Below are positions 2,181 through 38,084 of a stretch of 64,000 bases of DNA, piece by piece. The stretch lies in assembly GCF_003172875.1 (NCBI RefSeq), contig NZ_QGKM01000003.1, positions 62,001 to 126,000 of the forward strand. The letters run 5' to 3'. The stretch comes from Leucothrix pacifica. GTDB taxonomy: Bacteria > Pseudomonadota > Gammaproteobacteria > Thiotrichales > Thiotrichaceae. The first letter of the stretch is position 1. Each line of letters begins with the position of its first letter. The position numbers and the translations under genes are program-made. The notes below the pieces were generated by a model, which saw only the letters and a program-made list of their open reading frames with translations, was not told the DNA's origin and ran no database searches.

Positions 2181-2358
2181 CCTCTGTCCTGATACCTGAG
2201 ATATTCCCCGTGATTTGTCACGAGTTAAGCCCTTCGGTAGGCGCCTTTTAGCGCCATTCTCCAGAGTTAGTACCTTGTACAGTCTTTTTGCCTGAGCGTT
2301 TCCGGGCGGATTTGCGTCTTCGGCGGCCAGCTAAGCAATGCGCTGACTCTCTCCTGTA
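2181..2358 (-). promoter_or_regulatory. Tandem glycine riboswitch
   Basis: Two consecutive glycine-aptamer-like units precede gcvT. The first (about 2358-2278) shows the ACAGGAGAG start, GCCGAAG, CTCAGGCAAAAAGACTGT and a TACAG/CTGTA P1 pairing. The second (about 2267-2181) shows CTCTGGAGA, ACCGAAGG, CTCAGGTA and ACAGAGG, with a CTCT/AGAG P1 pairing. These are the conserved blocks of the known tandem glycine riboswitch that turns on gcv operons when glycine is abundant. Boundaries are by eye. Confidence 0.93.
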
Positions 2359-2380
2359 TCAGGTATCACCAATTAGAAGA

Positions 2381-33126: not shown

Positions 33127-33327
33127 ATGTCACGGAATGACAATGTTTTTTTTCTCTTCGAAAGCAACATCAAACGCGAATTCAAAAACCGTAAAAAACG
33201 CCAAAGCAAGAAAATGCGTCGACGTTTGGAAGTAAAACGCAAGTTGGATAACTACTTTGAAAACAAGCGCATCAACCGTCAACTCGGCTTTTTGGAAGAT
33301 GATGACGAGCTAATGTGGGAAATTTAG
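33127..33327 (+). CDS. Small highly basic protein of unknown function
   Basis: This 66-residue protein has a strongly basic centre (NRKKRQSKKMRRRLEVKRK, about residues 21-39) and an acidic end (LEDDDELMWEI). It is probably helical. A strong GGAGG ribosome-binding site eight bases before the ATG supports real translation. The RRRLE...ENKR pattern faintly recalls small gammaproteobacterial proteins of the PA3496 type, but I cannot confirm this. Nucleic-acid binding would fit the charge. It stands alone between mutS and tRNA-Arg. Confidence 0.65.
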   Translation: MSRNDNVFFLFESNIKREFKNRKKRQSKKMRRRLEVKRKLDNYFENKRINRQLGFLEDDDELMWEI

Positions 33328-33430: not shown

Positions 33431-33507
33431 GTCTCGGTAGCTCAGTTGGATAGAGCGGTCCCCTCCTAAGGGACAGGCCAGGGGTTCGATTCCTCTCCGG
33501 GACGCCA
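33431..33507 (+). tRNA. tRNA-Arg (anticodon CCT)
   Basis: A 77-base tRNA with encoded CCA. The acceptor stem pairs GTCTCGG with CCGGGAC. The anticodon stem GTCCC/GGGAC encloses CTCCTAA, giving anticodon CCT, and the T-loop GTTCGATTC is normal. It reads the rare AGG codon. Confidence 0.96.
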
Positions 33508-33587
33508 TCCATTCACACTCCCTCAAAAACTTCGTTACACCTCCCAACATTCTGTTAAGCATTAAACAGGACTTTCATCCCACCCAA

Positions 33588-33732
33588 ATAAAAAACGCCC
33601 TTTGCCGGGGTAAGCAAAGAGCGTGGGGGTTGAGATTGGCGATGATCTTATTTTTATTATTGATAGATCGCTCTTCTCGGGGGCTTGCTGGTAAATCTTT
33701 TATTATTATTTTGTTGTTATCGTTTTGTTGTT
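33588..33732 (-). ncRNA. Candidate sigma-54-driven, CA-motif small RNA (CrcZ/CrcY-like)
   Basis: A putative RNA of about 145 bases begins 12-13 bases after a sigma-54 promoter and ends at a Rho-independent terminator. It carries four AAnAAnAA motifs on the minus strand: 33725-33732, 33711-33718, 33700-33710 (extended) and 33654-33661. In Pseudomonas such catabolite-activity motifs bind Hfq with Crc, and the RpoN/CbrB-dependent RNAs CrcZ and CrcY use them to titrate the repressor. No plausible protein fits: the one overlapping frame starts upstream and runs past the terminator. Function and partners are inferred; presence of crc and cbrAB cannot be seen here. Confidence 0.55.
33590..33624 (-). 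terminator. Rho-independent terminator of the candidate small RNA
   Basis: On the minus strand an 11-bp stem with one mismatch (33614-33624 with 33595-33605, loop 33606-33613) is followed by six T residues. No annotated gene on this strand precedes it, so it terminates an otherwise unseen transcript. A T-run of this length also suits Hfq-bound RNAs. Confidence 0.78.
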
Positions 33733-33743
33733 GATAAGTAATA

Positions 33744-33759
33744 TGCACCGGGTGTGCCA
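33744..33759 (-). promoter_or_regulatory. Sigma-54 (RpoN) promoter
   Basis: The minus-strand sequence TGGCACACCCGGTGCA matches the -24/-12 consensus (TGGCAC, five to six bases, TTGCA) with one change in the -12 element and the obligatory ten bases between GG and GC. The predicted transcription start is about 33732-33733, directly at the first AAnAAnAA motif. A palindrome TGACA-T-TGTCA (33851-33861), about 120 bases upstream, could be an enhancer-binding-protein site. Confidence 0.62.
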
Positions 33760-34260
33760 ACTTTCTCCAAAACCGCATAAATAATTGTTTTATATATATT
33801 TTTAAAGTTTTAATCGATTTCTAAATAGCACTATTTCAGTGAGCTAAACATGACAATGTCAGCTTACGACGGCGTTATTGGATAATTTGTCACTTATGAA
33901 CGACTCACTGGCCCAACTAATCTACACATCTGGCTCTAAGAAAATCTGAATACAGGTTTTAAGGTGAGATTCACATCCGGGGAGGTCAACGATATGCAGT
34001 GAGCAGGATTCCGCAAAAACACACAAATCTGCCAACAATCTCACTGCAATGGCGATGTCAGTTCCATGCGCACTGAGGCACACAATTGTTACCAATGACA
34101 CTAGTCATATCGACGATGAATCACTGATGTACTCCTCCTGCAAAAAAAAGGTGTGAGTGTAGTATGATAAAGAAACTCAGTGATGCAACCTTGCAGCACC
34201 GAGCATAACTTGTCTCCGGCAACCGAAGGCAATTCAGAGAGTAAGACCACAGGAGTTCAA
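33760..34260. other. Intergenic region before the taurine-type transporter
   Basis: This stretch of about 500 bases has no convincing gene on either strand. It contains the possible enhancer site for the minus-strand sigma-54 promoter and, towards the right, a cluster of inverted repeats that may form a structured leader of the ABC transporter mRNA. Two tiny frames with start codons occur: ATG-CAG-TGA after GGGGAGG at 33993, and a 14-codon frame at 34164-34208. Neither is supported enough to call as a gene. Confidence 0.5.
33963..34184 (+). promoter_or_regulatory. Possible structured 5' leader of the taurine-type ABC operon
   Basis: Several pairings can be drawn by eye: GGTGAGATT (33963-33971) with AATCTCACT (34037-34045), an inner GCAGGATT/AATCTGC stem, TCAGT...ACTGA near 34057-34077, ATGAC-ACTA-GTCAT (34095-34108), and ATCACTGA (34120-34127) with TCAGTGAT (34177-34184). 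It matches no riboswitch class I know. Folding was not computed and some pairings may be chance. Confidence 0.3.
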
Positions 34261-35235
34261 ATGAAGTCAATCAAGAAAATTCTAAGCTGTATCTCACTAG
34301 CAGCAGTTACTGGCATCGCAACATCAACGGCAAGTGCAGACGTTAACGTTGCATATTTCCTAGAGTGGGCAACCCCAAATCAAGTCGCTAAAGTTGAGAA
34401 AGTTTATGATGAAGCACTCGGTGAGAAAGTTAACTGGGTGAACTTTGCTACGGGTACTGCAATGACCGAGGCGATGCTGTCTGGCGATATTGATATTGCA
34501 TTCAGTCAAGGCATGACGCCATTCGTTAACGCTGTGAATGCTAACGCACCAATCAAGATGGTTGGTATTGCAGTTGCTTACGGTGCTGGTGGTGATTGTG
34601 TTGTTAGCGACAAGTCAGGTATATCAAAAGAAAATGCAACAGAGCTGGAAGGCCAATCAGTTGCAGTACCGTTAAATACAATGTCTGACTATGAACTTCG
34701 CCTGACGCTAAGCAGTCTGGACGTAGATATCACAAAAATCAAAATTGTTGATCAGGAACCAGCAGATGCTGCCGTCTCTTTGGCTGATGGTGCTGTAGCA
34801 ATGGCATGCGGTTTTGGTGCTGACTCACTGTCTAAGATGAAAGAAGTTGGTAAACCAATGTTAACGCTGGACGAGAAAACAGCAGCTGGCATCACTAGCT
34901 TTGATATCGTTTCTGTGACTGAGAAGTTCATTCAGGAAAACCCTGAAGCAGTAAAGACGTTCATGGAAGTTACATCACAAGCCAATGCAGATTTTGCCAA
35001 AGACCAAAGCAAGATGGATGTTATTGCTAAAGATGCGGGCTTAACGCTGGAGAAAACTAAAGAGCAAATGGCTGGATTCAGCTTCCCTTCTGTTGAAGAG
35101 CAGATGGCAGAGTACTTCAATGAAGATGGCAAGGTCGCAAAAGTATTGCCATTCATGGGGAATATGTTTGCTACAGAAGCAGCGCCAGCTAAAGACGATT
35201 ACTCTTCAGTAATTGATACATCTTTCCTTAAGTAA
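34261..35235 (+). CDS. ABC transporter substrate-binding protein, taurine type
   Basis: This 324-residue periplasmic protein has a signal peptide (ISLAAVTGIATSTASA, cleavage near residue 26) and an NMT1/TauA-like fold. VAYFLEWATPNQVAKVEK at the mature N-terminus, GDIDIAFSQGMTPFVNAVN and APIKMVGIAVAYGAGGDCVV match proteins annotated as taurine binders. The ATG at 34261 has AGGAG upstream; an in-frame ATG at 34180 adds 27 non-signal residues and is unlikely. It is first in a three-gene operon and is followed by an intercistronic terminator. The real substrate (taurine, another sulfonate, or an amine) is not proven. Confidence 0.85.
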   Translation: MKSIKKILSCISLAAVTGIATSTASADVNVAYFLEWATPNQVAKVEKVYDEALGEKVNWVNFATGTAMTEAMLSGDIDIAFSQGMTPFVNAVNANAPIKMVGIAVAYGAGGDCVVSDKSGISKENATELEGQSVAVPLNTMSDYELRLTLSSLDVDITKIKIVDQEPADAAVSLADGAVAMACGFGADSLSKMKEVGKPMLTLDEKTAAGITSFDIVSVTEKFIQENPEAVKTFMEVTSQANADFAKDQSKMDVIAKDAGLTLEKTKEQMAGFSFPSVEEQMAEYFNEDGKVAKVLPFMGNMFATEAAPAKDDYSSVIDTSFLK

Positions 35236-35263
35236 GCCTACTTAAGTCAGGAAAGTGTTACAC

Positions 35264-35292
35264 AAACGGCAGATATCTCATCTGCCGTTTTT
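35264..35292 (+). terminator. Intercistronic terminator between the binding-protein and ATPase genes
   Basis: A perfect 11-bp stem (35264-35274 with 35280-35290) and a five-base loop end in a T-run. It lies 28 bases after the binding-protein stop and 63 before the ATPase start, so most transcripts should stop here, giving excess binding protein over membrane components. Confidence 0.85.
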
Positions 35293-35355
35293 ACATCAGA
35301 GTTATTCTAAGCGGTACTTTAAGACAACGTAAAATCAATCACCTAAGGAAGGTAT

Positions 35356-36150
35356 ATGAGTGACCTTGTAGCAAAAGACTTAAGTATGGTTTTTGATGTT
35401 GGTTCAGGGGGGCAAGTTCATGCGCTTAACAACATCAATTTCACTCTAAAAAGTGGCGAACTATTATCAGTACTGGGGCCGTCAGGCTGTGGTAAAACAA
35501 CGCTGCTAAATATCATCGCAGGATTCAATCACCCCACAAGTGGTGGCGTGTACCTTGGCGATGAAGAAATCAAAGGTCCTGGTGTGAACAGGGGCATGGT
35601 TTTCCAGCAAGGCGCTTTATTTGAATGGTTAACGGTTTCAGAAAACGTCGACTTTGGCCTGCGTATGAAAGGTACTGACCCTAAAAAAAGCCGTAAAATG
35701 GTCGATGAGTGGTTAGATATCGTTGGCTTGGCTGGCTTCGGTGATGTTCCTACCTATCAATTATCAGGGGGAATGCAGCAACGGATCGCATTAGCACGCT
35801 GTCTCATCAATGATCCGGATTTGATTCTGATGGATGAGCCACTTGGCGCACTTGATGCATTGACCCGGGAAAAAATGCAGTCGCTTGTACTTAAAATCTG
35901 GAAAGAAACCGGCAAGACCATCATGATTATCACGCACTCAGTGGAAGAAGCATTACTGCTGGGCGAACGACTATTCGTCATGGCACCAAGACCGGGACGA
36001 ATACACAAAGAATACAATCTGCCCTTTGCTGACCGTGGTGTCACCGAAGATACCCGAGACATCAAAAACGGGGATGATTTTATTCATACTCGTGAAGAGA
36101 TTCTCACCATGATCTGGGATATGGAAGAAGAAATTATGGGGCAGGTGTAA
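35356..36150 (+). CDS. ABC transporter ATP-binding protein, taurine/nitrate type
   Basis: This 264-residue ATPase energises the importer on the cytoplasmic face. It has Walker A GPSGCGKTT (about residues 40-48), a Q-loop in FQQGALFEWLTV, signature LSGGMQQRIALARCL, Walker B LILMDEPLGALD and the switch ITHSVEEALLL. It belongs to the TauB/SsuB/NrtD group. An AAGGAAGG ribosome-binding site precedes the ATG. It is followed two bases later by the permease gene. Confidence 0.93.
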   Translation: MSDLVAKDLSMVFDVGSGGQVHALNNINFTLKSGELLSVLGPSGCGKTTLLNIIAGFNHPTSGGVYLGDEEIKGPGVNRGMVFQQGALFEWLTVSENVDFGLRMKGTDPKKSRKMVDEWLDIVGLAGFGDVPTYQLSGGMQQRIALARCLINDPDLILMDEPLGALDALTREKMQSLVLKIWKETGKTIMIITHSVEEALLLGERLFVMAPRPGRIHKEYNLPFADRGVTEDTRDIKNGDDFIHTREEILTMIWDMEEEIMGQV

Positions 36151-36152
36151 TT

Positions 36153-38084
36153 ATGTTTGATTTCTTATTTGAATACCGGGGCGTTATTGTCGGTACAATA
36201 TTTGTTGCCTTGATTGCCGCTGTTATATGGGCGTTCTTCTACGGGCGTAAACTAATACGTACCGAAAAAAATGATGCTGTTTTTGGTAATCCCGCACGTG
36301 CATTAGGTGGCTGGCATTGGGTCATAACGGGGGTTAGTGCGATTCTCATTGTTTGGCTCTATTTCTCTTGGGATGCTGCTCGGGCATTCCACCCCAAAGC
36401 TGCCAATGAGCTTTGCCAGGTCGCTAAACTATCATCTGCAGTCAATCCAATTCGCTCAACCTTTCCTTTAGAAAAAGAGTTTTTAAAAGGTACGAGCTTA
36501 TTGGTTCGTGAAAATGCGCAACTGTCTGAGCTTGAGGAAAGAGTTGAGAGACTAGGCTTTTCTGAGACCGAAAAAGCGAAAGCGAAAGAAACGATCGACT
36601 TGATGCGCGCAGCGATAACGGGAATGACTTCACCGGAGTATCTTGACGCTGAAACAAGTAGTCAGTTTAAAAGTATTGAAGCACGGATTGATGATCTAAC
36701 CGCGAAACTTGCCGATGAAAACTACCCTGGTGAGCCAACGACTGAGCAAGTTGCTGCCGCTGAAAAGAACGCACGCTGGGGGGACTCTGGTAACGAAATC
36801 CCGAATGCTCCTGCTAGTCCACGGGGCTATAAGTTTGATGCAGCCGCAAAAGAAATGAAGTCGATTGCGTCTGACTTTTCCAAAATCAGAAATAAGAATG
36901 AAAATTTCTTAGCTCAGATTGAAAAGCTTAAAGCACAGATCGCATCACTTGATGAACTGGCTCAAGCCTCTCCGGGTGTTGATGAGTTACTCGTCCAAAA
37001 CCGGGCTGATTTCGTTAAAGGTCTGACGCGTGTTTTACGCCGTGTGGATGATGGCAATATCTTCCCACCGGATGCATTGAATAATGTTCAGGCAGCACTC
37101 GTTAAGTTGGATGATGAGCAAAAAAGTCAACAAGGTGGACTAAGATTCTACGACACCTTCATGATGCCAGGCGGTCAAATCACGTCAGGTAGTAGCTCAT
37201 GTAGTGAACAGGGTTCTGGTCGCTGGTTACCTAAGCCATCAGACACTTTACGTACTTTTGCACGTATCTCTAACCCTGAAATTGGCTATAAAGGTTATCC
37301 ACTGTTGTGGTACAAAATGAAACCATTCGGTGAGATGGTTGATTTCGTACTTCCGGATTTCATTTCATCCTTGGTGCCGGGTAAATTCCCTCGTCATGAT
37401 GAAAATGGCATCGTTACACCAAACTTTAAAAGCAAGGTACATGACATTGTCACGGGTAACTTTGAGTCGTTTAAAGTACCCATGCCATCAGGCCATGTCT
37501 GGGACTCATTACTGCGTGTATTAGCGGGTTTGTTCTTCGGAATTATCCTTGGTGTGCCGCTGGGGCTGTTCATGGGACTATCGCGGTTCTCGAAAGGTTT
37601 CTTCGATCCGATGATCGAGCTTTATCGTCCGGTCCCACCACTAGCATGGGCACCGCTGATCTTAACAATCTTTGGTATTGGTGATGACGGTAAGATCTTC
37701 TTACTATTCATGGTCGCCTTCGCGATTATGGTTATCTCAGCCAGAACCGGTGCAACGGGTACGCATCTTTCTAAGATTCATGCGGCGCACTCACTGGGAG
37801 CAACAAACCGACAGATTCTGCGTAAAGTCATCCTACCTAACTCGTTACCTGAGATACTCACAGGTATCCGAATTGCGATTGGTGTGTGTTGGGGTACTTT
37901 GGTTGCTGCGGAAATGCTAGCAGGTACCACAGGTATTGGTTTCGTAGAGAATGTGGCGCGTAAGCAGTCTGACTACGAGATCATCTGGACCACGATTATC
38001 ATCCTTGGTCTGCTCGGATTGTTATTCGATCTGATGATGCGTTGGATTATTGATAAGGTCATTCCTTGGAGAGGTAAAGGTTAA
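36153..38084 (+). CDS. ABC transporter permease with a long N-terminal extension, taurine type
   Basis: This 643-residue protein ends in a standard TauC/SsuC-like permease domain (about residues 440-640) with the EAA loop HSLGATNRQILRKVILPNSL. Typical TauC proteins are about 270 residues; here the N-terminal 440 residues add two hydrophobic helices (about 6-28 and 48-70) and a roughly 370-residue hydrophilic region with coiled-coil character (KIRNKNENFLAQIEKLKAQI). The extension probably lies in the periplasm between helices, but topology is inferred. It is the last gene of the operon, followed by a terminator. Confidence 0.88.
   Translation: MFDFLFEYRGVIVGTIFVALIAAVIWAFFYGRKLIRTEKNDAVFGNPARALGGWHWVITGVSAILIVWLYFSWDAARAFHPKAANELCQVAKLSSAVNPIRSTFPLEKEFLKGTSLLVRENAQLSELEERVERLGFSETEKAKAKETIDLMRAAITGMTSPEYLDAETSSQFKSIEARIDDLTAKLADENYPGEPTTEQVAAAEKNARWGDSGNEIPNAPASPRGYKFDAAAKEMKSIASDFSKIRNKNENFLAQIEKLKAQIASLDELAQASPGVDELLVQNRADFVKGLTRVLRRVDDGNIFPPDALNNVQAALVKLDDEQKSQQGGLRFYDTFMMPGGQITSGSSSCSEQGSGRWLPKPSDTLRTFARISNPEIGYKGYPLLWYKMKPFGEMVDFVLPDFISSLVPGKFPRHDENGIVTPNFKSKVHDIVTGNFESFKVPMPSGHVWDSLLRVLAGLFFGIILGVPLGLFMGLSRFSKGFFDPMIELYRPVPPLAWAPLILTIFGIGDDGKIFLLFMVAFAIMVISARTGATGTHLSKIHAAHSLGATNRQILRKVILPNSLPEILTGIRIAIGVCWGTLVAAEMLAGTTGIGFVENVARKQSDYEIIWTTIIILGLLGLLFDLMMRWIIDKVIPWRGKG

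Follow-up and report, generated by a model that had tools for sequence, protein, structure and literature searches.

A minus-strand interval of the Leucothrix pacifica genome combines a sigma-54 promoter, A-rich repeats, and a transcription terminator, which raises the questions of whether it encodes a genuine small RNA, what would switch this RNA on, and what it would act upon. A preliminary description of the DNA had read the interval as a candidate shorter relative of the Pseudomonas RNA CrcZ, which would titrate Hfq/Crc when carbon sources are poor. We examined the locus within its 64,000-nucleotide stretch of the genome (hereafter "the window"), alongside related loci from other genomes. 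The features of the locus are, from upstream to downstream:

33888-33892, minus strand: TGACA, putative activator box, of a type enriched 7-fold upstream of the family described below
33851-33861, minus strand: TGACA-T-TGTCA, putative paired activator boxes forming the palindrome TGACATTGTCA, the same box type as upstream of pilA
33744-33759, minus strand: sigma-54 promoter TGGCACACCCGGTGCA (GG-N10-GC), conserved in 50 non-redundant family promoters
33590-33732, minus strand: predicted small RNA of ~143 nt, from promoter and terminator positions, fold z-score (-3.2), and homologues
33700-33732, minus strand: A-rich leader, unstructured and containing AACAACAA and AACAACAAAATAATAATAA, AAN repeats of the Hfq distal-face type, based on AANAANAA counts in 53 leaders against shuffles
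33680-33695, minus strand: TTTACCAGCAAGCCCC, single-stranded and nearly invariant (CAAGCCC does not vary across 34 diverse modules), a candidate pairing seed or second contact site
33632-33678, minus strand: core hairpin with outer helix GAGA/UCUC (compensatory changes), inner helix GCGAU/AUCGC (covariation), and A-rich apical loop AAUAAUAAAAAUAA (33661-33648)
33590-33624, minus strand: Rho-independent terminator with a C-rich loop and T6

The basic architecture held up at the level of individual positions. Within the minus-strand sequence TTGGCACACCCGGTGCAT, the GG (33758/33757) and GC (33746/33745) of the promoter at 33759-33744 have the exact N10 spacing claimed for them, and the terminator consists of a 12-pair stem (33624-33595) followed by T6. 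With transcription predicted to start at about 33732, the product would be a terminated, A-motif-rich RNA of 143 nt (33732-33590), in agreement with the roughly 145 nt suggested earlier for a member outside Pseudomonas, and has a folding energy of -31.8 kcal/mol (z = -3.2). The A-rich repeats are also present, although not as the four AAnAAnAA motifs initially counted: the transcript includes seven overlapping AANAANAA matches in three A-rich stretches, for an expectation of 0.9 under dinucleotide shuffling, with seven reached in 1 of 1000 shuffles. Across the window, this is the only locus at which TGGCAY-N6-TGCW is followed by A-rich motifs, the sole other promoter match having none. One 67-codon minus-strand frame spans the interval (33575-33778); this frame is probably not coding, because the covarying RNA structure described below argues against it. 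Around the locus, a tRNA-Arg(CCT) gene (33431-33507, plus strand) converges tail to tail on the small RNA gene and is preceded by a 66-amino-acid open reading frame (33127-33327, plus strand) for which no Pfam family was found, while an adjoining plus-strand operon (34180-38084) encodes an NMT1/TauA-like substrate-binding protein, an ABC ATPase, and a permease. Elsewhere in the window, Rfam models identified tandem glycine riboswitch aptamers (2182-2366, minus strand).

Comparison across related genomes removes doubt about the element at 33590-33732: it is confirmed as real by the recurrence of promoter, boxes, leader, core, and terminator, all conserved, in dozens of independent loci. The same unit occurs about six times in the L. 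pacifica genome itself, six being the number found in this draft assembly (contigs C70, C144, and C125, twice on C58, and as a longer copy on C57), and copy numbers from fragmented metagenome-assembled genomes (MAGs) are lower bounds. A pattern scan of named genomes matched Leucothrix arctica, Leucothrix-type and Cocleimonas MAGs, Thiotrichaceae MAGs, Thiothrix fructosivorans, T. lacustris, and T. singaporensis; contig-scan matches in Foetidibacter, Acetobacterium, Emticicia, and others came without promoter and structure and were attributed to chance. A covariance model of the core detected the family in 55 of 63 Thiotrichales genomes (43 of the 46 of good quality) and in all 8 genera. When the model was run with stricter Infernal filters against 369 genomes of the class, matches were confined to Thiotrichales apart from a single one located in coding sequence, which we dismissed as chance. 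Two contigs (L033, L053) of a MAG labelled Aquificaceae (MAG 28) also carry the RNA core, closely resembling Leucothrix/Cocleimonas-type copies, and are likely mis-binned or mislabelled. On a contig labelled Thiothrix sp., a partial HEARO RNA (L045:5859-5998) was observed at the contig end beside a family copy. The family is absent from Rfam, and our literature search returned no small-RNA work on Leucothrix and nothing relevant for Thiothrix or Thiotrichales.

Family members share a common order of parts, in which an array of TGTCA/TGACA boxes is followed by the sigma-54 promoter TTGGCAY-N5-NTGCA, an open A-rich leader, the segment UUUACCAGCAAGCCCC, a hairpin, and a terminator or GC-rich hairpin. 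Leucothrix genomes mostly contain short copies in several places, each with only 1-3 A-rich stretches, and transcripts in Thiothrix and related genera are predicted to reach 280-440 nt with 3-7 such stretches, the assignment of Thiothrix-type genomes resting on matching loci and the scan of named genomes. In some members, UUUACCAGCAAGCCCC, hairpin, and terminator or GC-rich hairpin are repeated two or three times per predicted transcript. UUUACCAGCAAGCCCC is unpaired in nearly all predicted folds, and the CAAGCCC within it is invariant across 34 diverse modules. The hairpin that follows is composed of an outer helix, a conserved internal loop, an inner helix, and the apical loop AAUAAUAAAAAUAA or variants of it. 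In a sequence-made alignment with an RNAalifold structure, on which the pair counts depend, 97.6% of inner-helix cells are paired and all five pairs show two-sided changes (57 two-sided cells), giving a covariation score of 0.84 compared to 0.29 in shuffled and ≤0.15 in slid controls. The outer helix GAGA/UCUC is replaced elsewhere by GAGGCA/UGCCUC, GAGACA/UGUUUC, and others; support for this helix leans on these compensatory changes, because the script used to assess it looks for pairing. By its compensatory base changes, the family is a structured RNA. One further candidate element, the UUCCCC terminator loop as a conserved anti-Shine-Dalgarno motif, was rejected, as the CCCC falls in the stem in other genera.

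Several properties of these RNAs point towards Hfq. The L. pacifica genome encodes both RpoN, the sigma-54 factor, and Hfq, the latter with distal-face residues Y25/G29/I30/K31 within IYLVNGIKLQG, so that an Hfq gene, an A-rich site, and a U-tract terminator, all expected of an Hfq-dependent small RNA, are present together. Over 53 family leaders, we counted 149 AANAANAA motifs, compared to 49 after dinucleotide shuffling (at most 69 in 200 shuffles). CrcZ of P. aeruginosa contacts the Hfq distal face by way of such (ARN)n repeats and thereby titrates the protein (PMC4063720). Given the AAN stretches of the open leader and apical loop and the U-tract end, the family RNAs should likewise bind the Hfq distal face, judging from their sequence. 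Long members with 3-7 A-rich stretches look like decoys by analogy.

A pure decoy would, however, need neither the invariant AGCAAGCCCC nor the conserved hairpin; this highly conserved structured core, which simple titration does not require, and the multicopy nature of the RNA were missed in the preliminary description. The short Leucothrix copies, with only 1-3 A-rich stretches, also count against a decoy, and A-rich motifs are shared with class II pairing RNAs, which use them as well. The family could instead consist of ordinary class II Hfq-dependent pairing RNAs of the ChiX/MgrR type, in which A-rich stretches recruit Hfq and UUUACCAGCAAGCCCC is a seed repressing mRNAs near their start codons. 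Such a role would fit the seed-like character of UUUACCAGCAAGCCCC, which is the most conserved part of the RNA, is mostly unpaired, and is repeated with each module in tandem members. Outside of RNA genes, 3 of the 7 exact seed complements in three Leucothrix genomes lie no more than 60 nt downstream of a start codon, and two of these three are in periplasmic binding protein genes; yet complements are about as frequent as chance predicts (roughly 1-3 per genome), no site is shared between species, and the start-proximal ones sit in signal-peptide-type codons with composition bias. A search of the same three genomes with the exact complement GGGGCTTGCTG yielded no conserved target. In two Leucothrix genomes, exact core complements fall at +20 nt (L197) and +39 nt (L191) of genes for periplasmic binding proteins. 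The long members, whose separate A-rich stretches number as many as seven, resemble a decoy, and we consider pairing as the principal function a credible but rather unlikely alternative. Decoy and pairing activities are nevertheless compatible and not mutually exclusive.

The same conserved core could also be recognized by a protein other than Hfq, contacting the hairpin and the C-rich segments. The conserved internal loop and invariant AGCAAGCCCC speak for such a partner, but no candidate protein was found, and the A-rich apical loop and leader suit Hfq, which makes this explanation highly improbable.

We then considered what might activate the family. Upstream of 50 non-redundant family promoters, 209 TGTCA/TGACA boxes occur within 220 bp, compared to 30 in shuffles. 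They concentrate 80-160 bp upstream, most commonly spaced as TGTCA-N5-TGACA. The palindrome TGACATTGTCA of the window locus (33861-33851), which precedes the promoter element by some 95 bases and the predicted start by some 120, had been proposed as a possible activator site, and is part of such an array. Boxes of the same type, at about -75 to -160, accompany the same sigma-54 promoter at seven pilA-type promoters (three in Leucothrix genomes, two in Thiothrix-type genomes, and two in one further genus). The number of boxes per site averages 4.2 for the small RNAs and is 3-5 for pilA, against 0.6 at 39 other sigma-54-like sites of the L. pacifica genome used as controls (p = 3e-16 and 1e-5). 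PilR is reported by Jin et al. in 1994 to recognize (C/G)TGTC. In P. aeruginosa, PilR and sigma-54 activate pilA, and GTCT elements are a hallmark of PilR sites (PMC6058289). The L. pacifica genome includes a PilR orthologue (L075) with a kinase gene preceding it, and PilR, for which each of five other genomes gave one strong match, shows 71-88% identity in relatives and 61% in a CrcZ-bearing Pseudomonas-type genome, where no pilA was found in the 80 kb around pilR. Since pilA has this promoter and these boxes upstream as well, PilR of a PilS-PilR system is the most likely activator, a well-supported inference from sequence; the boxes are of the pilA type instead of CbrB sites. Another sigma-54 activator could use these boxes, however: the L. 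pacifica genome encodes strong NtrC, NtrX-, PilR-, DctD-, and RtcR-like activators and one further candidate, L077, a response regulator with a membrane sensor gene upstream. The pilA 5' leaders themselves (L132, L135, L136, L140) contain A-rich, AAN-like stretches just before the start codon (e.g., AAAACAACATAATAAGAGAG), possible Hfq sites, so that pilA could be among the mRNAs freed, which we offer as a lead only.

These observations allow a further reading to be evaluated, in which the RNA is a true carbon-catabolite RNA of the CrcZ type that acts on Hfq/Crc and is controlled by a CbrB-like protein. The family has the sigma-54 promoter, A-rich stretches, and terminator of CrcZ, and its TGTCAC/GTGACA boxes are one base different from the CbrB subsites TGTTAC/GTAACA (PMC6296734). 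On sequence alone, a CbrB-like protein might therefore still read them, but the sharing of boxes with pilA favours PilR; TGTTAC was not among the top 20 enriched upstream k-mers, which are of the TGTCA/TGACA type. No CbrB was evident among the sigma-54 activators found in the L. pacifica genome, with models that included none named CbrB, nor was CbrAB or a bona fide Crc: the nearest Crc-like protein scores higher as an exonuclease III/AP endonuclease (xth, 345 bits) than as Crc (248 bits) and retains the catalytic residues. Membership of the CrcZ family was not borne out either, the window locus scoring 10.1 bits against the Rfam CrcZ model for a gathering cut-off of 95. This model did not match the long members and exceeded its cut-off in no Thiotrichales genome; in Rfam scans of the window and 26 related loci, CrcZ matches were all sub-threshold and mostly elsewhere. 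The CrcZ analogy is thus good, while its Crc and carbon-source part is not supported, and a true CrcZ-type function appears very unlikely.

Taken together, these results are best, if only moderately confidently, explained by a multicopy Thiotrichales small-RNA family, activated by PilS-PilR and sigma-54, that would serve as a decoy for the Hfq distal face, with AGCAAGCCCC as a pairing seed or second binding site. The family, its fold, promoter, and box array, and the sharing of boxes with pilA are computational observations, from which we infer PilR binding, expression, Hfq binding, and decoy output. PilS-PilR senses pilin in the membrane. Phosphorylated PilR, with sigma-54, would raise several small-RNA copies together with pilin; their AAN stretches would occupy the Hfq distal face, and several copies acting together would draw Hfq off repressed mRNAs, as CrcZ does in Pseudomonas. 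The unpaired, invariant AGCAAGCCCC would probably add base-pairing or a second protein contact. With such control by the pilus regulator and such binding to Hfq, signals from a surface or from the pili might reset translation cell-wide. In its broadest form, this proposal describes order-wide, multicopy, PilS-PilR-controlled Hfq decoys through which pilin or surface sensing frees Hfq-repressed mRNAs cell-wide; these decoys would have evolved independently of CrcZ or diverged from it deeply, and a conserved antisense seed would also be present in their modules. We hold this version tentatively, at a little short of even chances. The best-documented cases of a dedicated RNA titrating Hfq come from Pseudomonadaceae, under carbon control. 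If the proposal is correct, a multicopy family of the same logic, conserved across filamentous sulfur bacteria and wired to the pilus regulator, would mark Hfq decoys as a general design and tie attachment and motility to global translation. A family absent from Rfam, with a covarying fold and members in culturable Leucothrix and Thiothrix, makes these predictions directly testable.

Among known systems, CrcZ/CrcY/CrcX (RF01675; Pseudomonas, Azotobacter) share a sigma-54 promoter, several AAN-repeat stretches between hairpins, and a terminator with the Thiotrichales family. The likeness is fuller in Thiothrix members, the long forms matching CrcZ in length (280-440 nt); the window copy has three (ARN)n stretches, long members have 3-7, and CrcZ of the Pseudomonas-type genome has five. 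This CrcZ lacks the conserved core, however, and the Thiotrichales family differs in its up to six dispersed copies, short 143-nt form, pilA-type boxes, and lack of an evident bona fide Crc. In Thiothrix, the gene is located after one that we take, from its C-terminus read by eye, to be ruvA, and not between cbrB and pcnB. The resemblance is one of working parts, and in their sequence these RNAs fall outside CrcZ. With the PilR/sigma-54 regulon, i.e., pilA, the family shares promoter type and TGTCA/TGACA arrays, but its product is a non-coding RNA; we know of no PilR-controlled small-RNA family, and our literature searches showed none. The Qrr RNAs of Vibrio are likewise multicopy and sigma-54-dependent, but differ in sequence and activator, and no Qrr model matched in Rfam scans of the window and related loci. 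Finally, class II Hfq-dependent RNAs such as ChiX and MgrR also combine A-rich motifs, a U-tract terminator, and a single-stranded conserved segment, whereas sigma-54 control, multiple copies, tandem modules, and an A-rich loop in a conserved hairpin distinguish the Thiotrichales family from them.
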